Below are positions 1,855-51,245 of a DNA stretch of 64,000 bases, one piece after another. How positions within the stretch are numbered: the first letter of the stretch is position 1; each line of letters starts with the position of its first letter. The stretch is from Symmetrospora coprosmae (taxonomy: Eukaryota > Basidiomycota > Cystobasidiomycetes > Symmetrosporaceae). The stretch covers positions 349,572-413,571 of the forward strand of contig VUYT01000017.1 in assembly GCA_008802785.1 (NCBI GenBank), written 5' to 3'. The position numbers and the translations under genes were made by a program. The notes under the pieces are model-generated. The model had not been told where the DNA came from. It saw only the letters and a list, made by a program, of their open reading frames with translations, and ran no database searches.

Positions 1855-2485
1855 AGAGCAGGACCGGGCAGGTTCGCACTATATGCAAAGCTATGATGTC
1901 GTTATAGAAGGAGATGATACCGTTCACACGCAAGGTAACGCATTACATCACTCGCAGGGTGAATGCGCAGAGAAGCCGCCAGCGTGTTCGATTCGCGGGT
2001 AACCTTGGGTCTATACTCGACGGGCCAGACATCCAGAGCAGCGACCGCGGCTACCGCATCGATCCATAAGTACTGTCAATCGGATCTCCATGTCACCCAG
2101 CCCTCAAGATATGGTCAACCAACGTTGGCAGTTCTTTGCTCACGAGCTCGCGCAGGTGGCAAATGAAAATAGGGGGCTAAGGGCGCTTGCTCCCATGCTG
2201 TCCAAGCGGAAGACGCAGACACAGCCTGGCACGGAGCCTGGCTTTAAAATCTGACCGAATGAAAGCTAGACATGGTACTCCCTCCCTCAGTCCGCCCTTT
2301 CCGCTCGACTCGCCAGCCATCCCAGTGCGCTCGCCTTTTCGGGCAGACACGACCCGCCCCTGTGCCTGACGATTTGCAGGCGAGACGGTGCCTCGAGGCT
2401 GCACGCCCGCGCCTCCGCCTGCATCTTGTTCGCGTTACTGGTACCTTTGGCTACTGACCATACGATACTTCGCTCACCTCACTTG
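1855..2485. other. Intergenic region PDX2 to kinase-like gene
   Basis: About 630 nt follow the PDX2 stop and precede the next start codon. It holds the PDX2 3' UTR and the promoter of the next plus-strand gene. Short open frames on both strands show no recognisable domain. I see no RNA gene or repeat. Confidence 0.5.
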
Positions 2486-3853
2486 ATGGACGCCTGGTAT
2501 AGCGATAGCGTCTGGGAGGATCCGCCTCTCGACGCAGGCTCAAGTTCGTCCGACTTGGACACGCTCTCGCACTCATCGCGGACGTCATCAACCAGTACTG
2601 ACCACTCGTCGTGGAAGGTCAGACGCCGTCCGTGAGCGTTGTGGCACACGCATAAGCTGAACGAGACGCCTTGCAGCACACCGCCAAATGCTGGACCCCA
2701 GAAATATGGGCCGGCTTCGACCGCTTCTTGCTCAGACACGGATACGAGCTGCTGACGAGGGACGGTGACTCGCCGACGTGCACTTGGGAGGAAGATCCCG
2801 AGACCTTCTTGTTACAGCGGGCCGAAGTGGCGCTAGCGGATTATTACCCTGTGAGGCGCTCATCAGGGCGTTCAGAGCGCAGAACTGCAACTCAACGAAA
2901 GACCATGGCACGCCTTCACTGCATTGTTCCAGTACGAGAACGTCAGAAAGGCTATAGGCTACCGTCAGCCACGCAGAGAAGTCTTCGTCCGAGCGCTCGT
3001 CGACAACCCTGCCAGTGACGAAGTGCTCGCTCTCACTATGTCAGAATCCGCTTCCGCGCGCAAAGATCCGCGCAATCATGTTGTCGGTGAGACTCCTTTG
3101 CATTGTCTTCGTGAAAGCTGGCTTGTAGCGATAGTTTCGCTGACTTCTAGCCACAGAAACGCTGGACATTCTCGAGACTGAGTTGGTAGACGGCATTCGC
3201 GTGCATTTCATCGTTCAGGTGGACGGCGGAGAACCTTGTTTCACCTTTCCCTTTACGGATGAGCGACTTTGGCGGAAGTTCGTCTTGAACTGCTTCGAGG
3301 TGAGTTGGCATGAGCTAGCATACAGGGCGGTATAGATGTAGAAGGCTGACTCGCTTCAGCCTGACCCATAGGGCGTTGCCTTCCTGCACGAGCGTGGTAT
3401 CGCCCATCTTGACATGTGAGTTGTGCTAATTGCCATGGCTGTCCTCGTCTGGCTGAGACCTTTGCTGTGCAGCGGACCGATGAACGTGCTCTACGATGAA
3501 GCGAGACAACGGCCATCTCTCATCGACTTCGAAGGGTGTCAGGTATTCAGGGAGGGGATTTTAGATGCAGGCAAACGATCTGCACTGCCTCATCGCTCGC
3601 CACTAGCGGTCAATGCCCGGCTTCCGGAGCTTGGCAAGCCTTTTGATCCATTCGCAGCGGATTGCTGGATGCTCGGTGCGTCTGCGTGATCGTCTTCACG
3701 GACACTAGCGGTACTATGGCTGACACCGCTCCACTAATAGGCGACATGCTATTGCAAATGCGCCCACTTCCCGAGACGGATCTTGTGGCATTGTTTCGCT
3801 TCATTTCGGGTGGGGCTCATTGCGATCTAGGGCGCACGGGAGCCACGAGCTGA
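2486..3853 (+). CDS. Atypical protein-kinase-like protein, spliced, C-terminus uncertain
   Basis: Probable exons are 2486-2617, 2677-2850, 2933-3086, 3151-3299, 3372-3415, 3473-3675 and 3741-3853. Nearly all junctions keep phase; the first donor (gtcaga) is the weakest. The product has a divergent kinase-like C-lobe. GIAHLDI-GPMNVLYD reads like the HxD...N catalytic loop (split by an intron after HLD). LIDFEGCQVF is in the place of the DFG motif but has DFE. FDPFAADCWMLG matches the DxWxxG region of subdomain IX. No clear glycine loop was identified. The stop at 3851-3853 may be premature: a reading frame offset by one base continues with a helical tail (YALAAIRHILES) to a TAG near 3960. Either a missed splice or an indel is possible. 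Similar single-copy kinase-like genes are common in basidiomycetes. The fold call is moderate; activity and role are unknown. Confidence 0.55.
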
Positions 3854-4167
3854 AGCATACAACGCATTTACAGTGCGCGAGCCAAAAGCCCGTCCGACCG
3901 TGCCATACGCCCTGGCCGCGATCCGTCACATTCTAGAGTCAGATGCAGGGTTGCAGCATTAGCCTTAGTGGGGGTGATTTTCAGAGATGAGCATCTGTAC
4001 TGGAGCACTTGCACGTGGAGCAGGGCAGGGACTACTAATCAGTCGAAGCTCGCCCGATGGCAGGTCCCCAGGACGGACAGTCCAGGCACCACCGCAGACT
4101 AGCGGCGGCATGGCTACGTCGGTGTCCTGCAGAGCAGCCTTGAATGCAGGCAGGGTAGCCAGGGCGC

Positions 4168-4887
4168 CTACGCTGTAGCGTAATCTCCAGCTTCGTCGCC
4201 CCGCACGTCGATGATGAAGCGAAGGTCCACGGTACCTGGCTGTTGCCCCTCAAGCAGATCCAGCACATGTTCTGAGAAAGTGCAGCGTAGTCTGTTTATG
4301 CCCTCCTTGAAAGAATCTGGGTCTGCCGATGATCTGGGCTGAGAATGCGAAGAACTAGCTCGAGTTCTGTGGGGTTGACCACGGCAAAGAGTAGCCGCTG
4401 CCTGCTGGAAAGCGGCCCACTGGTGTCCTGAGAAGCAGCAGTCTCCATAGCGACTCCCATCGAAAGCTTGAACACCATGTTGCGGAGGAACTTGGGCGAA
4501 AAGGTTTCCATGAACTCATGCAATCTTTCCGGGCCCCAGGTAATTCGTCTCAATCTCCCTGAAGAGGACAGGCGCCTGTTACAAAACGCGACGTGACGCG
4601 CACAGGGCCAGTACCTTCTCTGCGCTAGAGTCGCTGATCTGGTCAGCCAGTCTGCTGCGCAGCGACATCTTCCTAGAGCGCTTCTGGACGAGACTGAAAT
4701 GCTTTAGGACCGCCGGCAGGAACCCAGCAACGAGCTCGAAGCATTCGTTCGGTAGGTCTAGCAGTACCGTCACGATTGGGTGATGGATGCCTTTTGCGAT
4801 GGTGTTGGAGTCCAGCGAAGATGCCCTCCGCTTCGGATGTTCGCCGGCCTCGAGCTCGATGGCTTTGGACACGTCGAGCGCGCGCAC
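4168..4887 (-). CDS. Hypothetical protein, start and splicing uncertain
   Basis: Open frames on the minus strand at 4579-4887 and 4296-4553 look coding and join across a roughly 45-nt intron (acceptor cttcag near 4567). A further frame read to a TAG at 4168-4170 could form an acidic C-terminal exon (LRFIIDVRGDEAGDY). The product would be about 220 aa, helical and Leu-rich in the middle (IVTVLLDLPNECFELVAGFL), with no domain I recognise. No in-frame ATG is obvious at the 5' end. A short leader exon beginning near 4936 and overlapping the GAA1 promoter is possible. It is divergent from GAA1 with at most 60 nt between them. A long antisense frame at 5146-5409 lies opposite GAA1 exons and was not used. 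Confidence 0.35.
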
Positions 4888-4944
4888 ATCCCTCGCTTCT
4901 GCCAGCTGATAAGGTGAGAACGCTAGCAGACTGCAACTTCTGGC

Positions 4945-7298
4945 ATGGCCAATCCGATACAGCGCCTCAAGGAGCGCTTGAGGCGCAAGACTTCGCCCTC
5001 AGATGCCGCGCGAACGCGTGCCCGACGGCGGAAAGCAATGATGAGCAAAGCGGCGACAGCCCTGCCCTACGTGCAGTGCGCTCAACGCTCAGCGAGGCTT
5101 GTCCTTGACAAGATCTGATTAGTCGCGCTCAGGCTTCTTCTGGCGTTAGCCGGGTTCCTCCAGTACGCCATCCTTCCCCTTCCACTTCCCCAGATTGCGC
5201 GACGGACGTACATCGACGAGAACGCTGTTCAGCCAGGCCAAGTGGGTTCCGGTCAAGAGTAGATGTCCATCGCAGACCGCTGAAATGCGCGGGCCCAGGT
5301 CAACACGTACTTCAACTGGCCAGACGTGAGCAACGCGGACAGGCACGCGGAGAAGGTTGGTGCGCTTCGCGAGGCAAGCAGCGAAGAGTGAGCTTGTATC
5401 TCGCGCCATCTTGAGGAGCTAATTATGCTTTCTGCTGAGATGCACGCTTCTTACGTCTTCCAGCCGCTCGGCCTATATCAAGTCGGCATTGCTGCAGGCG
5501 GGCCTCCCTGCAGCGACGCAGGCATACTCCATCGCGCTCGGACAGGTACGCCACGGCTGTTCTGCCAGGTGTAAACATAAATGGGACGCTAACAAGGCCT
5601 CGCTGACCAGGAAACGATACGAGGCATCAACACCTACGCGATGGTCAGGGCACCGAAAGCGAGCGGAGGCGAGATCATCGTCCTCGCTGCGCCTTGGAAG
5701 AGCAGAGAAGCGGGGATGGTGAACGTGCGCGGTGTCAGCTCTTTCCTGGCATTGGCAAAGCATCTTCAGAGTGAGTCGCCTCCTTTCACTTAGGAGCGGG
5801 ACTGCGGTCGACAAACGGGCTGATGTTCTGCTTGGCTCGTCAATGCGCAGAGCTAGCCGTCTGGTCCAAAGATATCGTGATCCTTTTCTCGGATGGTGAT
5901 CTTGAAGGCTTGCAAGCATGGCTGCATACGTACCACGCCTACGACGGGCAGAGTAGGTCAAGTCATCCCAGAAGAATGCGGGAACACCGCTGACATTTGT
6001 TTGCTGGGTATCCAGACATCGTTGCTGAGCCGATCGAGTCCTCAGCTGGCTCGATCTGGACTGCTATGGTTGTGGACTACCCCTTCCACTCTTTTAGCCA
6101 TATCGGCGTGTACTACGGTGTGTGAGGGACGAGGCTGGCTTGGCGGAACATAGCGCTCCAAGGGAGCTGAGTCTCTTTGGACGTACCGTTACAGATGGGA
6201 TCATGGGTCGTCTCCCGAATCTGGACCTGGTCAACTCGGCAGTCCACATCTCGCGCTGGGTCGGAGGCGTGCCCGTCCGCCTGCACAATCAGACGTATAC
6301 CGAGCCGTCTAACGAGCAAAGCATGAAAAACTACATGCGGAGGTACGGTCAGCGCGCTCGGGGCCTGTTCCAGCAGACAGAATACGGCATGACGACACGG
6401 CCAAGCGGGCCAGAAGGGCTCTTTGGGCAGTGAGTCTCGCTATAGCCCTGTCGCCGACAGCCAGATATGCGCTGATTGTCCCGCTCCGACAGATACGGCA
6501 TCGATGCTGTCGGCCTTTTCGCCGTGCCAGCTGACGGTCCTCACGGGTTCTACACCATCGGCCGCATCGTCGAGTCGCTCCTGCGGACCGCCAACAATGT
6601 TGTGGAACGGCTGCACGCGTCGTACTTCCTCTACCTACTCCCAGAGCCATTCCAGTTCCTCTCGGTCGCCAGCTATCTCTCAGCGCCCATCTTGATCGGA
6701 GCCAGCCTCACTTTTGCGGGCCTGCGCTCGTGGCATTACTCGCCAGCCGGCACAGGCCTCAAAGCGCTTGTGGGCGTCCTCGCCAGCTACTTGATCGGGC
6801 TGGCCGCTTTGTTTCACCATCAGCGACAGCTTGTGAGTGTGCCGGCCGCACGAGTCCAACATCGACAGCGTGGCTAACCTTCTCTGCCATGCCTTGCAGG
6901 CAGGGGCTGCGGTCTGCGCCGGCCTCGGCTCGGTGGCTGCACTGACGGATGTCACGGGTCCGTCGCGTCAGAAAGCAGGACAGGCCCTGATGGCCTTCTC
7001 GCTCCTTTCCGCCGGCATGGTCATCTCGGTCGCCACAATCCTCAACTACGGCCTCGGGGCTGCCTTGTCCATCCTGACGGGGGTCCCGCTGCTCGTGCTG
7101 TACTACACGGCGTCCGCGCCTCGATGGCTGCGCATACAGCTGCAGTGCCTGATCTTGGCTGCGGGGAGCATGGCTGTGCACATGCATGCCAGCCCGTTCC
7201 AGCGCGAGCTATCAGTCAGCGGCGCACCTCTACAGTATGCCATCTGGCTGTGCCTGGCCCCGCTCTATGTACAAATACTCGTCAGTTTGGCTTCGTAG
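4945..7298 (+). CDS. GAA1: GPI transamidase complex subunit Gaa1
   Basis: Gaa1 is the ER membrane subunit that brings the GPI lipid to the transamidase for attachment to proproteins. Ten exons: 4945-5075, 5133-5241, 5299-5387, 5464-5545, 5611-5770, 5851-5952, 6016-6117, 6195-6429, 6493-6832 and 6900-7298. They keep phase throughout and sum to 582 aa, close to the yeast protein (about 614). The short basic N-terminus leads into a hydrophobic anchor (LLLALAGFLQYAILPLPLP). Next come the luminal peptidase-like region (YIDENAVQPGQVNTYFNW, INTYAMVRAPKASGGE, VILFSDGD), the GRLPNLDLVNS signature and HGFYTIGRIVESL. Several membrane spans fill the last two exons. Exon 2 lies opposite a minus-strand open frame that I treat as a shadow. 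The identity is secure. Confidence 0.95.
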
Positions 7299-7412
7299 CA
7301 GTCCGTCCGCTTCTCTTCTTCAGTCAGCCAATGCAGCTGGCCTACGCTCCCGGACCGGTACTGGGCGCGCCATGCAGTGTTACATCTTTTCGCCCTGTTG
7401 CCTACTCGGTGT

Positions 7413-24847: not shown

Positions 24848-27800
24848 CTAGTCATCGTCTGTGTCCGTGTCTTCCTCGCGCTTCGCCCCTGGGATGGACG
24901 AGCTCAGGAAGGCTAAGGTACGTGCTCTCCGCCTGTCCTCCTGCTCTTTGAGCTGCTTTCGAGTCTGTCTCGCGAGAAGGCGATGAAAGAGGCCAAGTTG
25001 GATGGGTTAGTTTTCGCGCTTGGTCCCAAGAAAAAACGAGCGTAGATTTCCCCACCTTCTTCTTCTTCTTCCCGATGGCCATGGCAACCCCGTCAACCAT
25101 CTTTGTCCGTGGCGCCTCATCACCGGAATTCGCTGCGGACGCGGGCGCCGACGAGCCCGGGGACGGGGCCTTGCTGCCATTGCGGCTGGCAAGACGCGAG
25201 GCAGTGCGGGAAGCCGCTTTGGACGCAGGAGGAGTGTCCTCGAATGCATCTTCCACGACGCCCGCCTTGCCCTTGTGCGTAAGAACACCCGCGTCTACGT
25301 TCCAGATCTCTGGGCAGAGCGCGCCGACAAACTCTGCATTGTGGGAAATACACACAAAAGCACCGGCCCACTCCCTGATTGCGACGGCGAGACCTCCAAG
25401 AGCGTCTCGGTCCAAGAAGTTGGTAGGCCTGTGCAATTGGAAAGGAGGAAGAGGGGGCGAGAGGGTTAGAATACGATTTCTTATACGCAATGAAGCAATG
25501 AGAACGCACTCGTCAAGAATGAGGAGCTGAGGCTTCGACCACAGCGCTGCGGCAAGGACGACCTTGACCTTCTGTCCACCAGACAGCCCGCGGACCTCGT
25601 TGTACTGCGCGATATCACCATCGAGGCCGAGCTCCTCGAGCGCCTGCCTGACGAGCTTCTGGGAGAGCTCCCTCGATCCGGATCCTTCTCTGCTCGCCTC
25701 GAAATCGTCAAACTGCTGGACGAGCTTGCTGAAACCGAGCTCAATGAGGCGCTCTCGCGGAATCCAGACATTGTGCTTGTGCTCGAGGTTCTTCCACTTG
25801 ACCTCGTAGCTGTACGACTTCTTGAGCTTCTGCCGGCCAATGAGCTGCTCAATGTACCGCTTCTCGCCCGTCTTGGCCTCGATGGGCGTCGCGAGCAGCT
25901 CCTGCTCCTCCTTGGACAGCGCACGCGTCGCCTTTTGCGTCAACTCGCGGTCGTGTCCGTCCTGGTATCGCCACTGGATGTACTGGCACGCCGTCTTCTC
26001 CATGTGCTGCTCCAAGTGCGCGAACGCGTGCTGCGCGACATAGGCGACTCGCAAGTTGGGGTGCTTCTCGACCTTGCCGCTGTCGGGAACGGTGTCACCC
26101 GTGAGCAGCTTGATGAGGGTGGACTTTCCAGCTCTGCAGCACGGAAAAGAAAGGTGTCAGCTCAACCTGGGACAAAGAAGCAGTGACGCGAGAGCACCCA
26201 CCCGTTAGGACCGACGACACCGACTCGAGACGAGAGTGTGACGGCGCATGAAGCATTGAAGAGCGAAGGCTTGGGTGCATTGGGATAGGTGAATGTACAG
26301 TTTGTGAGCTTGAGGATGGCACGGGTGCTCGATCGGACACCCATGAGGGAGCCTGGCGGCGGGAAGCTGAACTTGACGACGGAAGCAGAGAGGGTGTAGT
26401 AAGACTTGGCGGCGGGGTGCTTCTCGACAAACCTGTTTGTGAGAGACGGGCGCGTCAGTTGACAGGCCACGCGTCAGATAACAGTATGTAGGGTCGGGAG
26501 CCACCCACTTCTGCAGGTTCCCGCGGTAATAGACGAGACGCTTCTTCTCGTAGTGGATAATGTCGGTACAGATGTTGTCGAGGAAGCCCGAGTCGTGCGA
26601 GACGACGAGGACGGTGACGTCCTTCTGCGCGGTGAGGTAGCCCTCGAGCCAGGCGATACTGGTCGTGTCCAAGTGATTCGTCGGCTCGTCGAGGAGGAGC
26701 AGGTCGGCTCTGCACACAATGGCGCGGGCGAGTGCAAGACGCATCTTCCAGCCTCCAGAGAGCGCGGCGACCTGGGCCTGCTGGCGGGCCTCGTCGAAGC
26801 CACACTCGCCGAGGACACGCTGCACATCCTCGGCGGTAGCGCCGCGCGCCTTGATGTGCTTGTCGTTGTTGAGGAACCCGATGCAGGTGCTGTCGTCCTC
26901 GGCGCCGTCAATGTCGTGCTCGACGTAGAAGGTCGTGAGCGTCTCGGGCCAGTTGTCAATCTGGTGCCGGTTGATGGCCTTGAGGAGTGTCGATTTGCCC
27001 GCACCGTTGGCGCCACACACACCGTAGCGATGGCCCCGGCGGAGCTTGAGCGTTGTGTGGTTCAGGAGGAGCAGACCTCCGTACGCCAGACTGAATTCGA
27101 GGTTTGTGATGAGCTCGCCCTGCCCATCGTCGTCCTCGTCGGCATCGCGGGCGTTCCGTGCGCTGTCGACGGCAAGCCAGTGCTTGACGCTCTCCTTGAC
27201 GATGCTCTCGACAGTCGCGGCGTCGAGGAAGCGGGCGAGGTACGGGCCGACGTACGTCTCGAGCCAGAGCTTCTCGCTGAAATCGCGCCGCTTGACAAGC
27301 GCAGCAATGGCAAAGCTGACGTAGGCGAGCGAGATCTGGAGGAAGGCATCGGGCTTGACGCCACCGTTGTGCTTCGTGACGAGCTTGTCGAGCTCGGCAA
27401 GGGCGAGCTTCTCGTCCTCGGCGCCCGCGGCATTGGTCTCGTTCTCCTTCTTTGCCATGATGTCGGCACCCTCCATGGCCTCCTCGCACGACTTGCGCGC
27501 TTCCTTGCCGAACTCTCGGATCTCTGGGAAGGCGGCGCCGTCGGCAATCTTGCTGACGCCTGGAAGCAGGATCGGGCCGTATTGGGCGGCGAGGATGGGC
27601 GAGCGGACGAGCTTGAACAGGTTGGAAATGAGAATGACGGACTGGCGCTGGACGGTCGTCCCCCGGTCGTTGAGGGCACGAGCGAGCAGGGGCACCAGGA
27701 CGGCCAGTGTGGGGCGGTCGACATCGCGCACCCAGACGTTGGCCGAGAGCTTCTTGATGCCCTCGCCAATCTGGTCGGGGCGGGCCATGCACCCGACGAG

Positions 27801-28580
27801 AAGCGGGATGAACGGAATGACATCCGGGTTGGTCATGACGGAGCAGAACTTTTCTGCACACTTGATGGCGACGTTGGAGACCTGTGGTCGCGTGTAACGT
27901 GAAGTGGATCAGTGAGCGGCTGCAGGCGTCCTGAATATCTAGGGTCGACTGCTCACATCGGCCTTTGTGTCCCTCATTTGCGTCTCGATCCGTGGAATGT
28001 ACTCTCCAAGCCTCTCTGCAAGCTGCTCCTTTGCCCTTGACGGGAAAGTAGCGAGCATCTCGATGAGTCCGACTTTGGTCTTCCACTTTACGCTGCTGCT
28101 CTCCATTGCCTCAAAGATGGCCTCGATGAACTTGGGCGCAAACTCTGCGGGCGGCAAGGTGACGAGCTGCTTGCCGGCCTTCAAGGCGGCGTCTCGGACG
28201 ACCTCTGCCTTCCCCTGCTCTGCGAGCCTGTCGGCGATGGGCCCGATGAAGGGCAGGAAGTAGGGCTCTGCTCCGCCTTTTCCAGGTCCGGATCCTCCTC
28301 CCACTCTGCGGAAGATTTCCTCTAGGGCGACCATGGCCCCTTCACGCTCAAACCCGCTCTTTGCATTCTTGCTCGCGCGGATGATGTCGCTCGAGATGTC
28401 TGCCTCCTCGAGCGTGCGCAGCCCTCGGGTGTTGATGTAGGTAGCGAGCTCTGCGGCGGCCTCTGAGCACTGGACGGCGTCCGGCGCAGAGTAGAGGCGC
28501 TGGAGGATGGCGCTCGGGGTGGCCGAGCCCTGCTCGCTGCCATGTCCAGCGCCATTGACGTTGACTGCTACTGGCGACAT
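24848..28580 (-). CDS. TEF3: Translation elongation factor 3 (eEF3)
   Basis: This fungal-specific ribosomal ATPase removes E-site tRNA and supports translocation. Six exons on the minus strand: 28580-27957, 27881-26509, 26432-26202, 26133-25510, 25428-25056 and 24964-24848, totalling 1113 aa (yeast Yef3 1044). Domains in order: HEAT repeats (about 1-330), four-helix bundle, and ABC1 with Walker A GANGAGKST, signature ALSGGWKMRLALAR and Walker B LLLLDEPTNHLD. ABC2 follows with GPNGAGKSTLIKLLTG (split by an intron after GPNG), an inserted chromodomain-like segment (YEVKWKNLEHKHNVWI), signature GLSGGQKVKVVLA and LLILDEPTNFLD. The C-terminus is Lys-rich with an acidic end. The identity is secure. 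Large antisense frames across it are shadows. Confidence 0.97.
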
Positions 28581-42442: not shown

Positions 42443-42877
42443 TCAAGCCTGAGCATCCGCCCTGGGGAAGCGCTGCACGCCATTGTCATGGGCGCTATTG
42501 ACCTTCTTCTGCGAACGGGCAAACGGCATCAGCTTGAGCTCTCGTCGTCAAGGTGCCGACGTCTGCGCCACGCTCACGCCCGTCTTTTCGATCTTTGCGA
42601 GGACGGCGTCAAACTCTGGCTGCCCCGTCGGCGCGTGCACGATGACCTCCTTGGACTCCCAGGCGACCTTTTCAATCTCGAGGCCTGCAGTGCGACATCA
42701 GCTCGGTGCTCAAGTCGCGTTGTTTGGCATGGCCCCCACCCTCCATCTTGGACAGGACGCGCTGCACGGCCCCAGAGCAGCCGCCGCACGTCATGGCGAC
42801 GTCGAACGTGTATGTGTGCTGTGCTTGCGCGTCAGCAGCGAACCTGCGCATGGTTTGGCCGGACTTACTGCAGACAT
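42443..42877 (-). CDS. ATX1: Copper chaperone Atx1
   Basis: This cytosolic Cu(I) carrier delivers copper to the P-type ATPase Ccc2. Four exons on the minus strand: 42877-42869 (9 nt, MSA), 42818-42740, 42684-42578 and 42508-42443, giving 86 aa. It is a single heavy-metal-associated domain with the copper site MTCGGCSGAV, the strand LEIEKVAWESKEVIVHAP, and the end VLAKIEKTGKKVNS with the typical T-G-K loop. Without splicing of the last intron a stop would follow at TSAP, giving a shorter but similar protein. Its expected client, the CCC2 gene, is only about 5 kb away on the other strand. Confidence 0.93.
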
Positions 42878-44391
42878 GGTGGAGGGTGGAGTTGGAGCGG
42901 AGGAGGTCCGGAGAGGTCGCGCGAGGCGCTTTCGGTGTCCTGACGACTGACAGAGCGACCGACCACATTGCGCAACAAGACTAACGCTTTGCTCGCGCTT
43001 GGCCGCATCTGCTTCCCGCATTGACACTGCGCGTGCCCTAGACTGACTGCACCTCTAGATCTCCGAACCTCTACTGACGCGTAGATGCGTACCAGCCGGA
43101 TAGCCCGGACCACTCCTGCCTCCCCTCCGTTCCGTCGCATCCGCACGCTCCGGTCCCATTCCGCACTTGCCAGTTCCGCTTCTTCCGCCTCCTCCCGGCA
43201 AGATCCGCTTCGGACCTGGCAACGCCGATTCTCGCGTCAGGAGCTCCTCGTTGTGCGGGCAACAAATGCGCATTGCTTCGGGATGAGGGCGATGGTCAGA
43301 TGACGCTCGTAGGCTCGCTCTCACGCTGACTGCGGCCAGACTACGCGGATTCCTCGCTCTTTTCGCGCTGAGGCGCGCCCCCTTCCGGCAAAGACCAGTC
43401 AGCACAACTCGAGTGATCGCGGAACACCATCCTATGACGGCTACAGGCCTATCCTTCCACAATCCTCTTCAAGCTTCAACGATGAATGTCTCCTGTCTTG
43501 CTGCACTCCGTCTGACTCGGCCGCTGCGCTTCCTGGTTCGAAATTCACCAAAACAAACACATCACCGGAGCTTACGCGGAACTGATTGGACTACTCCATC
43601 CATCTCGCTGTGCTTGATGCATGGCTTTCGCTCGTCTTCTGCTCTTACGCCGCTTCTCTCCAGCCATTCCCGGCCGACCGATTGGCTCGGGCCATACTCT
43701 GAAAAACTTTCTTTCTTACTGACCTGCGTACTAGTCGGCAGACTGCCGCACATCTTTTCCTATACTCTCGCTCCTCCTGACGCGTCTAAAGCTGCATTCC
43801 AGTCGGACGGCGCGCTCGCTTCCGTCATTAGCGTGCGCTCAGGCCTCCTCCGTCTCGAGCTGCGGAGTGACCTAGCTTTCCGAAAGACTCGGCGCCTCTA
43901 AGATCGACTTGACCATCTCTTATTGGCCGACTGATGATGCGACCGTCTTCCTTCTCGTCTATGCGTCGATGATGCCGCTATGTGTTTTCGCTTCCTGGGC
44001 CATCTGCCGGTCGGAAGCGAAATTTCCCGTGCGCAGGGTCTCCACTCAACCACATCTACGCTCGATGACTCCATTTCACTATGTGCTACTGAAGAGCACT
44101 CTACTGCTGTCCTGGGCATTCGCCTTCGTCCGGACATCTACCCCACCTTGCCCGACGTCTCCGCCTTCGAGGGCGATCGCGGATGTGTGGGACCGATGAT
44201 GAAGCAATGCACCCACAACGCGAGCATGGCGATAAATAGAGCTCTACGTACCGCTACAGCAGAAAAAAGGGACGCCCTGCCCTTCCGGCCGTCCGCGTCG
44301 CGCGAGTCCGGTCGACGGGGATTTCCCGCTCGGGCCTAAGCGCCTCGAACAACGAAGGAAAGGACTGAAGGGCGCCTGTCCAACGAGCAAG

Positions 44392-44400: not shown

Positions 44401-44552
44401 GGCCAGCGACCAGGATTGAACTGATGACTGTATTCGGTATGTCGGATTAGCCAGATGTTTCCCAGGGTCGCATGTCGAAGAAGGACTCACCCTCTTGCAT
44501 TTTTGGCAGTACACCGCCCAAAGCAAGCATGATACCGCTACACCACGCTAGC
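44401..44552 (-). tRNA. tRNA-Pro (anticodon UGG) with two introns
   Basis: Exons are 44552-44517, 44499-44491 and 44427-44401, giving a 72-nt mature tRNA. The acceptor stem GCTAGCG/CGCTGGC pairs over 7 bp with one G-U. The A box TGGTGTAGCGG is intact, and the D arm has A14, G15, G18 and G19. The anticodon stem CTTGC/GCAAG encloses TTTGGG + T, anticodon TGG. The T arm is ATCAG-TTCAATC-CTGGT, the B box GTTCAATCC, and the discriminator C73 as in eukaryotic tRNA-Pro. Intron 1 (44516-44500, 17 nt) is at the standard 37/38 site and carries CCA opposite the anticodon. Intron 2 (44490-44428, 63 nt) interrupts the variable loop, starts GTGAGT, has CTAAT and ends TACAG. Removing it leaves a normal 5-nt variable loop AGGTC with C48 able to pair with G15. 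A T6 terminator follows. Confidence 0.85.
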
Positions 44553-46277
44553 CACACTCTGATTGGCTGTGCGCTCTTTCGTATGCCGTACATATTCGTT
44601 TGCATCTTGCCCCTCTGTCGATTTTTGCCACCAATCCGGCAAACCGCCCTTGTCAGCTCGGATACGCTTACGAGGTCGCTTATGGTTCTCTCCAAACTCC
44701 TCCTCGAATCTGCTATCCTCTAGTATCGCAGCTCAGAACCCTCTGTTTGAGATCCGGGCTTGTCCAGATGTTTTGACTGTCTGCCATCTTCCTCCGCAAA
44801 GCTCGCGTTATACGTGCACACCCAAAGGGTCTGGGTTGTCGGCCACCTCTCGCGAATATCCGTAGCTCATTTTGTTGTGTCTGGACGCGTATACTCCATC
44901 TGCCGCGTGCCCGTAGACTCCGTTCCATCCCTGTCTTTGGAGATGCGGCTGGGCCGTCTCCTCGAGTACCTGTCAGTGAAGATGTCGTAATGCATCCATG
45001 TTCGCGAGCGCCGCGCCTGCCTCTATACGAGATCAGAGTTTGATGACAGGTGTGCTATCACTTCCTCTTGCTCTTCTGCGCCGACTCCGCCCATCTCCTC
45101 AATTTCCGTCACCCTGAGTGCTCGATCGCTCCTCCGGAGGAGCGGCTAGCCACTCACCTCGACGGAATCTCGTTCCGTCTTCTTCAGCACAACAGCTCGG
45201 TTGACATATCAGGGTTCCGGAAAGAGCGGCAAGAGCGCATTTTGACGCCTCCTTATGGAAATGGAAGAACGGCCTTCTGTCGAGATGTACCCCTTCGCAC
45301 GGGATGGAGCGCTTCAAGCGCTCGAAAGTCGCAGACGGCACGAAGCCTCGGCCAAGCTTTCCGCAGGCTGGAGATTCATCCTTCCAGCTCGCTCCTGCTC
45401 CATCTCCTGCCAAGATGCTTGCTTGAATTGCAGTCTACCCTGCCCAATTGCTCCTCCCCGTACTCTCGCTTCCGTAGCGCGCAAGATTATCAGGCTTGGT
45501 GAAGCGCCGCGTTGTCGCGAGCTGACAGCAACAAAGCTACCGCCACTTTCGCTCTTTGCCTTTGCGCTGTCTTCCCGACCAAGCTGCTGCTCTTTGTTAA
45601 TGACAAGCTCCATCTCTCCCATCCGTCCCCTCGTGCATGCATTGCTCCTTCCCCCCACAGGTCCGTTTCGGCGAGCTCCGGTAGGGCTGCATCGAGCTGC
45701 ACATCTTCAACAGCGGTATTGTGCAAGAGGCCGATGCCGCTCTGGACACCCGCTTTGCCTGCGGTGGTGCCGACTCTGATTGAGTTGGACGCGACTGGTA
45801 AGACGGGCCCGGCGCGAGCGGGGGCGTCACGCATGATTGCACGGAAAGAGTGACGTATTTGCACCAGAAGCGACAGCGTACATGTGGAAGCACGCAGTCG
45901 CTACTGTTAGAAGGCTGACACCGTCCCCAAGGACCGACGCAGACGAGCTTCACGCGAGGACTACTTTCATGACGTGTCGATCCTGACTTTTCGACGTCCT
46001 ACATCCGGAAGTTTACCTCTACAGTGCCAAGTAGCCACGCATAGCCCGCTACTATCCTACCTGCGTAAATTGCCTGTTCCCACCAGCTTTACAGTCCCGC
46101 AAATGCTGGGGCCTTAGCATCCTTGCACGCCCCCGGTGGTGGCTATGACGCCGCACGCTGGCACTGCGCTTGGTGGCGGTCTGGGTCCTGGTGCTGGCGC
46201 GACGCTGCTGGATTCTACGCTCTTCTTCAACTCCCACCATCACTGCAGCAGCACAAATCGAGCATCTGTGCACTTGC

Positions 46278-47940: not shown

Positions 47941-50900
47941 ATGGCAGAGAAGACGGTGCTGCGCGTCAGCGGCATGACCTGTGGCGGTGAGTCGCGCTGT
48001 GAGCACGGCGACGACCGACGCTGACTCCTGTATGCTGGTGCAGCGTGCGTCAAGGCGATTGAGGATGGTCTCTCATCTCAGCCGGGAATCCAATCCGTCG
48101 TCGTCGCACTGCTGTGGGTGCAGCGTGTGCGACTCCCTTGGATGGCGACAGCCAGATGCTGATGATATTGCAATGATCCCACAGCGCTGAGAAGGCCACA
48201 GTCGAGTATGACGGCTCAGTGTGGGATCCAGAGAAGCTGGCCAGCGAGATTGAGGTGCGTCCATCCTGCAGAGATCCGACAACACCAGCTGACAAACGGC
48301 GCCATGCAGGACCTAGGCTTCGAGGCTACGCCCATCCCTGCTGTCGCTGCAACGCAAAACACGCTCCTCGTCTCGGTCTATGGCATGACCTGCGCGTCGT
48401 GCACCTCTGCAGTCGAGAAAGCCGTCAGAGCACTGCCGGGCGTCGTGTCGGCTTCGGTCTCGCTCACTCCGGGCGGGTGCCAGGTCGTGCACGAGGCAGG
48501 ACTCGGCGTGCGCGACATTGTCGAAGCCATCGAGGACGCTGGCTTTGACGCCGTCGTCAGCTGGGAAGAGTCCAACCTCGTCCAGCTCCAGTCGCTCAGC
48601 CGCACAAAGGAGGTCCAGTCGTGGCGCCACGCCTTCTGGCGCGCCTTGACGTTCGCTGTGCCCGTCTTCGCCATCAGCATGATCCTGCCCATGATAGCGC
48701 TCACGCGTCCGCTCGTCAACTACCGCCTCATCCCTGGCCTCTATCTCGGCGACCTCGTCTGCTTCTTCCTCACCCTCCCCGTTCAGTTCGGCATCGGGCT
48801 GCGCTTCTACCGCTCGGCGTGGAAGGCGCTCAAGCACCGCAGCCCGACCATGGACGTCCTCGTCGTATTTGGCACATCCGCCGCTTTCGCCTATTCGTTC
48901 TTCGCCATCTCGTTCGCCATCTGCATGGGCAACCCGGCCTACCACCCGACCGTCTTCTTCGACACTTGCACCATGCTCTTCACCTTCGTCAGCTTTGGGC
49001 GATACCTCGAAAACATGGCAAAGGGCAAGACATCCGCTGCGCTGAGCAAGCTGCTCAGTCTGGCGCCCAACAAAGCTACAATCTACACCGACCCGCCAAC
49101 CTGCAGCAAGGAGAAAGTCATCGCCACAGAGCTCGTCCAGGTCGACGACATTGTCAAGATTGTGCCCGGTGACAAAATCCCCGCAGACGGCTTTGTCGTG
49201 CGCGGAGAGTCGAGCATCGACGAGAGCATGGTCACCGGCGAGGTCGTCCCCGTTGTCAAGCGCGCAGGAGACGGCGTCATGGGCGGGACAGTCAACGGGC
49301 ACGGCACCTTCGACATGCGTGTCTCCCGAGCTGGCCGCGACACTGCGCTCAGCCAGATTGTCAAGCTCGTCGAGGAGGCGCAGACAAGCAAGGCGCCCAT
49401 CCAGGCGTTTGCCGACACTGTCGCCGGCTACTTTGTCCCCACCGTCATTGCGTTAAGCCTGGCCACCTTCCTCGGCTGGATGGTCATCGCCCACACGTGC
49501 TCCTCCCTCCCGCACATTTTCCACCAGGAAGGAGCCAACACGTTCATGGTCTGCCTCAAGCTCTGCATCTCGGTCGTCGTTGTGGCGTGCCCGTGCGCGC
49601 TCGGTCTCGGCACCCCAACAGCTGTGATGGTGGGCACGGGCGTGGGCGCGCAGAATGGCATCCTCATCAAGGGTGCAGGTCCGCTGGAGGCCAGTCACAA
49701 GGTGGACCGCATCCTTCTCGACAAGACGGGCACGCTTACTGTTGGCAAACTGGCCATTGTCGGCATGCGCTGGGCGTACGCCAACAGCAGCGAGCTCGAG
49801 CACCAGCAGGCGTTTAACGGCGTCGCATCGTCGCTCGACCTGTCCAGCAACCGCAGTAACGAGCGTCGTCAGACCTGGGCGGCGGAGCAGAGCGACGTCC
49901 TCCTCATGATGGCCGCTGCTGAGAGCAAATCCGAGCACCCGCTCGCTCGAGCCGTCGGCGCATTTGCAAAGCGCGAGCTGGGCTACATCGACCTCCCTTC
50001 CACGGTGTACGTGACAAGCTTTGAGTCCGTCACTGGCGCAGGGATCCAGTGCGAGGTGTCGGGCGAGTTTTCCGGGCCCATGTTCACCTCTGGAGGAAAG
50101 GACAAGCGGAGGCGGATTGCCATTGGTAACCTGGCGTTCCTGAGCAAGAGCCACGTCAGCGTGTCGGAGAGCTCGCTTGCCTTCAAGAAGCACGAGGAGG
50201 AGCTTGGCCGCACCGTCGTCCTTGTCGCTGTCGACGGCGTCCTCGCCTGCGTCGTCTCGCTCGCCGATACCATCAAGCCCGAGGCGCGCCTGGCGGTCAA
50301 CGCACTCCGCCTGATGGGCATCCAAGTATCGATGGTCACGGGCGACCAGGAGACGACGGCCAAGGCCATCGCAGCCGAGGTTGGCATCGACGCCAAGGAT
50401 GTGTATGCCGGTGTGCGACCAGAGGGCAAGCGGGAGATTGTAGAGCGGATGCGGGAGGAAGGACTCGATTACAAGCACGACAGTCCATGGCAGCGTCGCG
50501 GTTGGGCTCTGCTTGGCATTGGGCGCAGGGCGGGCTCGATTCGACATCGCGTCGCAATGGTTGGCGACGGCGTCAATGACTCGCCGGCTCTGGCATCGGC
50601 CGACGTTGGGATCGCGCTGTGCTCCGGTACGGACATTGCCATCGAGGCTGCAGACATTGTCTTGATGCGCGCGGATCTCACGGATGTCGTTGCTGCACTT
50701 GATCTCTCTCGCGCCATCTTTCGCAAGATCAAGATGAACTTTCTTTGGGCGACGGTGAGTCGGGTTCGCTGGACTGAGAGAAGGTACGTGGCTGACATGG
50801 ATGCTCTCTACCTCGCCTCCCGCAGATCTATAACGTTGTGGGCATTCCCCTTGCAATGGGTATGCTCTTGCCGTGGGGTATTCACCTGCACCCCATGCTG

Positions 50901-51245
50901 GCCGGTGCAGCCATGGCCATGAGCAGCGTCAGCGTCGTCGCGTCGAGTCTGACCCTGCGCAACTGGGAGCGCCCCGCCACCATCCAGCGCAAGGACGGCT
51001 TGATATCTGCTCGCAGCACCGCTCGCACTTCGGGAGAAGGCATGCTTGCCGTTGTCGGAGACGGTGTCCGATCCGTCCTGGACAAGGTGCGCAGCCGGTC
51101 GCTGCAGGACAGAGGGTACATGGCGGCTGCACCCATCTCGTCGCTGGACAACAGCCCGACGGATGCGTTTCCCTACGCAGCAACGAGGCGGCAGAGTGGA
51201 TATGGCAATGAGGGTATCCCGCTGATGAACCAGGTCGCTCGGTGA
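47941..51245 (+). CDS. CCC2: Copper-transporting P1B-type ATPase (Ccc2)
   Basis: This trans-Golgi Cu(I) pump loads copper into secreted oxidases such as the iron-uptake ferroxidase. Five exons (47941-47986, 48044-48113, 48185-48254, 48310-50754, 50826-51245) give 1016 aa (yeast 1004). Two heavy-metal domains come first, with MTCGAC (its Cys-x-x-Cys split by the first intron) and MTCASC. Next are membrane helices, the phosphatase motif TGE (SMVTGEVVPV), the ion-site CPC (VVACPCALGLGTP), the phosphorylation site DKTGTLT, the SEHPLA nucleotide motif, MVTGDQ, and the hinge MVGDGVNDSPALA. Final helices and a roughly 90-residue soluble tail follow. An extra segment of about 20 residues (around SPWQRRGWALL) sits before the hinge. 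ATX1 at 42.4-42.9 kb is its predicted donor. Confidence 0.96.

Follow-up and report, generated by a model that had tools for sequence, protein, structure and literature searches.

GT-AG introns of spliceosomal type in nuclear tRNA genes of Symmetrospora coprosmae

The tRNA-Pro(UGG) gene and its surroundings

The window, by which we mean the whole 64,000-nucleotide stretch of Symmetrospora coprosmae DNA that was analyzed, contains on its minus strand a tRNA-Pro(UGG) gene that is interrupted twice. The parts of the gene are listed here with their positions in the window.

44401..44552, minus strand: tRNA-Pro(UGG) gene interrupted by a canonical intron and by a GT-AG intron, called by ARAGORN on the spliced form
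44517..44552, minus strand: exon 1, nt 1-37, with the acceptor 5' strand, the D arm and the TGG-bearing anticodon 5' half
44500..44516, minus strand: canonical 37/38 intron of 17 nt, CGGTGTACTGCCAAAAA, an expected tRNA endonuclease substrate
44491..44499, minus strand: exon 2, nt 38-46, 9 nt
44428..44490, minus strand: spliceosomal-type GT-AG intron of 63 nt in the variable loop, at 46/47
44485..44490, minus strand: 5' splice site GTGAGT of that intron, with G at +5
44446..44450, minus strand: branch-site-like CTAAT, with a putative branch A at 44447, 19 nt before the intron end
44428..44430, minus strand: 3' splice site CAG
44401..44427, minus strand: exon 3, with TC, the T arm, the acceptor 3' strand and C73
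44392..44397, minus strand: Pol III-type terminator, T6
44587..44596, minus strand: TATA-like AT-rich aatatgtacg about 40 nt upstream, without a strict TATA

A sequence-only reading of this DNA had described the 63-nt insert, and its coordinates, GTGAGT donor, CTAAT and TACAG end were all confirmed. The insert begins with GTGAGTCC and ends in AATACAG, and its excision leaves a variable loop of five nucleotides, AGGTC, as had been proposed. That reading also held that removal of this insert restores a Pro tRNA. We found that its removal is necessary, but that it is not sufficient, as the 17-nt intron at 37/38, on which that reading was silent, must be removed as well. The gene extends from G1 (44552) to C73 (44401), followed downstream on the minus strand by CTC and then the T6 run, and its cloverleaf has the acceptor stem GCTAGCG/CGCTGGC, T8, A14, G18G19, the anticodon TGG and the T arm ATCAG TTCAATC CTGGT. 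A poor covariance-model score for the spliced form was to count against the proposal, and ARAGORN called the sequence with both inserts removed as tRNA-Pro(tgg) with a score of 113.0. On the unspliced sequence, with the permitted length of an intron in the anticodon loop set at up to 150 nt, ARAGORN made no call, and scans of the window with ARAGORN and with Rfam (gathering scores) returned no tRNA.

Two controls indicate more than a chance match. Each of the 29 T-loop-like anchors in the window was scored with none, one or two GT-AG excisions (38-100 nt each), and only Pro-UGG exceeded a score of 58 (it scored 65), and the next anchor scored 45. When the end dinucleotides were left free, 9 of 4384 excisions tied for the best Pro-UGG cloverleaf, and the sole GT-AG excision among those nine was 44490-44428. 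None of the equally good excisions for the 37/38 intron was GT-AG. The 271-nt Pro-UGG locus matched only itself in the genome, in a search passing over very common words, and the insert thus does not look like a repeat. A mobile element was considered as its source and, on the same search, set aside.

Other genes were noted in the window. An intron-containing gene for an EF3-like ABC protein lies at ~24870-28580 on the minus strand, and its named matches include a protein of Puccinia coronata and the Mycena citricolor mRNA export factor elf1. On the plus strand, 48208-50922 encodes a heavy-metal P-type ATPase bearing an HMA domain, and about 5 kb from it an ORF at 42672-42968 on the minus strand, with a weak HMA match just under the Pfam cut-off, is perhaps a copper chaperone exon.

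GT-AG introns and their splice signals in 23 tRNA genes

The assembly comprises 20.05 Mb in 77 contigs. Cytochrome b encoded on contig C77, which was taken as mitochondrial, has its nearest matches under fungal names in Macalpinomyces bursus (92% identity) and Jaminaea/Parajaminaea (91%), followed by Tilletia indica (89%); a record labeled as a Rickettsiales MAG is just as close and is probably mislabeled, and five records without a name reach 94-97%. Macalpinomyces and Jaminaea belong to the Ustilaginomycotina, and on this marker the fungus was taken as a basidiomycete near that subphylum. Pattern and family searches, with inspection of 60 genome stretches, produced a catalogue of at least 45 nuclear tRNA genes, 23 with GT-AG inserts and 22 without, some of the 22 having canonical introns. 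The catalogue is incomplete, with 63 of 188 candidates scored in the family search and one pattern represented by the matches listed, of 239 places, so an intact copy of some isotype may have escaped; tRNA-Met and several isoacceptors were not found in it. Another pattern returned three places, one of which was the already known Ala-TGC gene. The 23 genes contain at least 31 GT-AG introns outside 37/38. These occupy 16 different sites, given here in Sprinzl numbering by our own assignment.

13/14: Ile-AAT.2
15/16: Asp-GTC (two genes), Lys-CTT (two genes), Lys-TTT, Thr-CGT, Leu-AAG.2, Leu-TAG
16/18: Pro-CGG
24/25: Gly-CCC
25/26: Ala-TGC, Trp, Arg-CCT
27/28: Pro-AGG, Asp (two genes)
28/29: Pro-CGG
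31/32: Gly-TCC
33/34: Glu-TTC
34/35: Cys, Gln-CTG.2
46/47: Pro-UGG
51/52: Lys-CTT (two genes), Pro-CGG
52/53: Trp
53/54: Lys-TTT, Ala-AGC.2
58/59: His
62/63: Phe-GAA.2

The site in the D-loop AG, 15/16, holds 8 of the 31 introns, and Pro-CGG has the most in any one gene, three. None is located at 37/38, and the interrupted genes also hold 17 canonical introns of 11-32 nt at that position. The A box covers approximately nt 8-19 of a tRNA gene and the B box approximately nt 52-62; with these limits, the A box is interrupted by ten of the GT-AG introns, and another five fall inside the B box or at its edge.

Gene models were first sought through GT-AG excisions, so the GT-AG ends alone are partly selected. 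Those of Pro-CGG, Lys-TTT, Glu-TTC, Gln-CTG.2, His, Ala-AGC.2 and Phe-GAA.2 were completed by hand. For Glu-TTC and Gln-CTG.2 our own scorer gave TGA and CGT, and the assignment was settled by isotype features; among the uninterrupted genes, Val-CAC and Glu-CTC are our own assignments, and the ARAGORN names differ. In Phe-GAA.2, the second Phe-GAA gene (L092; G000:C44:23527-23589, minus strand), the intron at 62/63 follows the T loop, so that genes of this sort escape a search that uses an uninterrupted T arm as its anchor. Interruptions of this kind may also conceal the absent isotypes, among them Met and Ser-GCT.

Several further observations were made on the catalogued loci. In the two Val genes, L082 and L079 (AAC and probable CAC), the T loop (ATCGAAA) carries A54 together with A60, a combination typical of initiator tRNA-Met. 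At L077 (G000:C44:786550-787150) a truncated Arg-like copy adjoins tRNA-Arg(TCT) on the opposite strand, with a common 3' half and a downstream stretch resembling that of tRNA-Arg(TCT); the pair looks like an inverted partial duplication. Beyond this genome, a search of phage records for relatives gave no match, a search of the viral collection gave eight stretches (seven uninterrupted and tRNA-like, and one, L103, not tRNA-like), and a search of the genome collection gave 29 stretches with bacterial record titles.

The GT-AG introns in the tRNA genes are 58-82 nt in length. All 31 models have GT...AG ends, in part by selection, and all 31 have G at +5, which was not a selection criterion; T at +6 occurs in 23 of 31 and a CAG end in 27 of 31. 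A CTRAY motif was found in 26 of the 31 introns, at 8-45 nt from the intron end (mean of 5.1 in shuffled sequences, maximum of 13 in 1000). CTNAY, a motif widened after the five CTRAY exceptions were seen, was present in 31 of 31 (shuffled mean of 11.7, maximum of 23). The duplicated genes (Asp and Lys-CTT) are not independent in these counts of signals. For comparison, five mRNA introns in one gene of the window, the elf1/EF3-like gene, were positioned by hand from protein alignments and range from 68 to 91 nt (75, 76, 68, 81 and 91 nt); their donors are GTGAGC, GTGGGT, GTGGGT, GTGCGT and GTGGGG, all five have G at +5, and each has CTRAY as read by eye.

These signals bear on an alternative in which the tRNA splicing endonuclease is relaxed, as in the red alga Cyanidioschyzon or nucleomorphs, and cuts out the inserts itself, the GT-AG ends being incidental. 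We consider this very unlikely. The 17 introns at 37/38 in the interrupted genes do imply that the endonuclease is present, but neither the G at +5 nor CTRAY is an endonuclease requirement, and the GT-AG inserts are much longer than those canonical introns. In a crude test for bulge-helix-bulge structure, the full 4-bp central helix was found in 1 of 30 GT-AG introns, and in 0 of 17 canonical introns, which thus gave no positive control. Archaea, to our knowledge, have no spliceosome. Non-canonical tRNA introns are described in some algae and, at 25/26, 45/46 and 53/54, in archaea (PMC4090602). The archaeal introns resemble those reported here in occurring at many positions and in numbers of two or three per gene, with the Pro(UGG) gene of Pyrobaculum islandicum among the multi-intron genes described, but they differ in being cut at bulge-helix-bulge motifs (PMC4090602). 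Within the eukaryotes, introns outside 37/38 are described in nucleomorphs and in Cyanidioschyzon merolae, and there too some genes have two or three (PMC4090602, PMC3978253). However, the ectopic introns of Guillardia theta are given as 3-24 nt, those of C. merolae are tied to bulge-helix-bulge structure, and the passages of these sources on such introns mention no spliceosomal signals.

Excision of the introns in silico and the products it restores

Precise excision of the GT-AG introns restores tRNAs. With the introns removed, ARAGORN reported the expected isotype for all 23 genes, with scores of 109.3-122.1. Unspliced, 13 of the genes had no call, nine were given a wrong isotype and one, Cys, was called correctly; in that gene ARAGORN itself placed an intron on the same 58-nt insert. 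We then let the ends vary over all excisions of 30-130 nt (2,184 to 7,335 per insert) for 30 introns, Phe-GAA.2, which was found later, being left out. The GT-AG excision was among the top-scoring in 28 of the 30, and in none of the 30 did a second GT-AG excision reach or exceed its score. The exceptions were the two Asp D-loop introns, which scored 89 against a best of 91. For none of the 17 canonical introns in the same scan did a GT-AG excision match or beat the score of the intron itself. One T-stem position stays unpaired in spliced His (52-62), Pro-CGG (49-65) and Ala-AGC.2 (50-64).

Comparisons between genes are informative on the same point. Spliced in silico, the interrupted Ile-AAT gene is identical over 75 nt to its intact paralogue. 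The two Lys-CTT genes encode an identical 73-nt mature tRNA, and identity between their GT-AG introns amounts to 63% and 74%, against ~48% for aligned random 68-mers. The two Asp genes, with GT-AG introns 93-94% identical and upstream sequence 91% identical, are evidently a recent duplication. Two other pairs were less clean, with 72% identity between the Gln-CTG genes and 79% between the Leu-AAG genes once spliced.

In the incomplete catalogue, every entry for Lys (three genes), Asp (two), Pro (three), Cys, Trp and His (one each) is interrupted, and among the matches listed and in pattern-bound searches there was no gene without a GT-AG insert for any of these six amino acids. An intact second Pro(UGG) gene, with no reads across the junction, had been named among the findings that would count against the sequence-only reading; no uninterrupted second Pro gene was found with a pattern for the 5' half (up to two mismatches) or by BLAST of the joined tRNAs. 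The 5'-half pattern is blind to interruptions in that half, and both Pro-AGG and Pro-CGG escaped it. When 16 joined tRNAs were compared with the genome by BLAST, there were 21 matches, all at loci already known to be interrupted; no match spanned a whole intact gene, and the Lys, Trp and Pro-CGG genes also went unlisted.

It is extremely improbable that the interrupted genes are pseudogenes, with intact copies elsewhere serving translation. Paralogues free of GT-AG inserts do exist for Ile-AAT, Leu-AAG, Gln-CTG, Ala-AGC and Phe, the catalogue is incomplete, and short insertions in the D or T arm of eukaryotic tRNA genes have been supposed to mark pseudogenes (PMC4090602, PMC3978253). Against this, the exons give back canonical tRNAs, the mature Lys-CTT tRNA is the same at two loci despite the divergence of the introns, and there are the six amino acids lacking an insert-free gene among the matches listed. 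Moreover, decay is not expected to preserve GT, G at +5 and AG in all of the inserts.

Transcription signals of the interrupted tRNA genes seem to be shared with the uninterrupted ones. All 22 interrupted genes tested and 17 of 19 uninterrupted ones have TTTT no more than 30 nt downstream. TATA is present between -60 and -20 in 16 of the 22 (shuffled mean of 5.4, maximum of 14 in 2000) and in 10 of the 19 (shuffled mean of 3.2, maximum of 10), with Phe-GAA.2 and three of the 22 uninterrupted genes left out of both tests. Pro-UGG is among the six interrupted genes without such a TATA. As TATA is found upstream of both sorts of gene, one promoter type seems common to them. These signals are relevant to the possibility that the tRNAs arise from capped Pol II transcripts and are spliced like mRNA, to which we give hardly any credence. 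The introns do resemble mRNA introns, and a cap would aid the splicing of short first exons. However, the T runs close to the 3' ends are as expected for Pol III, and the upstream TATA points to a promoter type used by interrupted and uninterrupted genes alike.

The single U6 gene found is also interrupted by a GT-AG intron, of 72 nt and with the form GTTAGT...CTTAC...AATCAG.

L101:1461-1532 (G000:C22:965634-965705), plus strand: U6 snRNA intron, between ...ATTAAAATTGG and AACGATACAGAG, directly before the latter

The Rfam match to U6 masks this intron, the tail of which is aligned as the 5' end of the RNA. An uninterrupted U6 gene was ruled out, its 5' part being displaced by the 72-nt intron.

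Probable spliceosomal removal from tRNA transcripts and its implications

The GT-AG inserts are, very probably, true spliceosomal introns of the U2 type that lie in nuclear tRNA genes transcribed by Pol III, and would be excised by the spliceosome. The sequence-only reading had suggested either that the spliceosome may act on a Pol III transcript or that a tRNA gene gained an mRNA-type intron that is handled in another manner, and the first suggestion is favored by 31 recurrences in 23 genes at 16 sites, always with G at +5 and CTNAY. Self-splicing group I or II introns, whose ribozyme core is well over 150 nt, were rejected, as 58-82 nt is too short and an Rfam scan of the window at gathering scores gave no match.

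We hypothesize that Pol III initiates from the upstream TATA-like element and ends at the T run. The spliceosome would then read GT..G(+5), CTNAY and AG, each insert leaving as a lariat, and would join exons as short as 11-12 nt. Folding of the tRNA would be next, after which the tRNA endonuclease and ligase would take out the 37/38 intron, where present, and the ends would be trimmed. The spliceosome is placed before the endonuclease because most inserts, such as those in the D, T and anticodon arms, would keep the tRNA from taking up the shape on which the endonuclease depends. The internal exons to be spliced across would be 11 nt in Pro-CGG and 12 nt in Asp, and that of Pro-UGG would be 9 nt if its 37/38 intron were removed first. 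Among known spliceosome substrates U6 comes nearest to an uncapped Pol III transcript with internal exons of 9-12 nt, and we are aware of none that matches it.

Spliceosomal introns occur in the U6 and rRNA genes of other fungi. The U6 gene of fission yeast has an mRNA-type intron (PMC10484740), which resembles the tRNA introns in being of GT-AG type and in interrupting a short RNA made by Pol III. The U6 case differs in that it concerns a single gene with the intron near catalytic nucleotides, whereas here 31 introns are spread over 23 tRNA genes, with no gene holding more than three, and some of these genes carry a 37/38 intron alongside the GT-AG intron. The canonical 37/38 introns, which are handled by the SEN/TSEN endonuclease and Trl1 ligase, are in contrast confined to one position, and the GT-AG inserts are found from 13/14 to 62/63, are longer and have mRNA-type splice signals.

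In the textbook division, mRNA introns are removed by the spliceosome and tRNA introns by the tRNA endonuclease and ligase. A 2026 review, in its classification, likewise has tRNA splicing as spliceosome-independent (PMC13149111). A search of the open-access literature (titles and abstract openings, with few subscription journals and with preprints outside its range) found no precedent for spliceosomal introns in nuclear tRNA genes. In S. coprosmae, single tRNA genes hold both kinds of intron. The description of tRNAscan-SE 2.0, in its account of non-canonical introns, presents their detection for archaea only; as ARAGORN and Rfam were also blank on the window, such genes in related fungi may be scored as missing or as pseudogenes.

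Taking these observations together, we think it fairly likely that the spliceosome has become obligatory for tRNAs in this lineage, the introns having spread into proto-splice sites with TATA elements enabling that spread. An upstream TATA element would first have eased dependence on the internal A and B boxes, and introns would then have spread into proto-splice sites such as the D-loop AG, perhaps by reverse splicing. Translation would in that case rely directly on the spliceosome, because all of the Lys, Asp, Cys, Trp, Pro and His genes found would need it to splice an uncapped Pol III transcript, in some cases across internal exons of 9-12 nt, ahead of any action by the tRNA endonuclease. 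If spliceosomal removal of the GT-AG introns is correct, the spliceosome can act on Pol III transcripts that have no cap and whose exons are tiny, and the gain of introns by structured RNA genes would be open to study, for example in the Ile pair with identical exons. The supply of tRNA would also be coupled directly to spliceosome activity.
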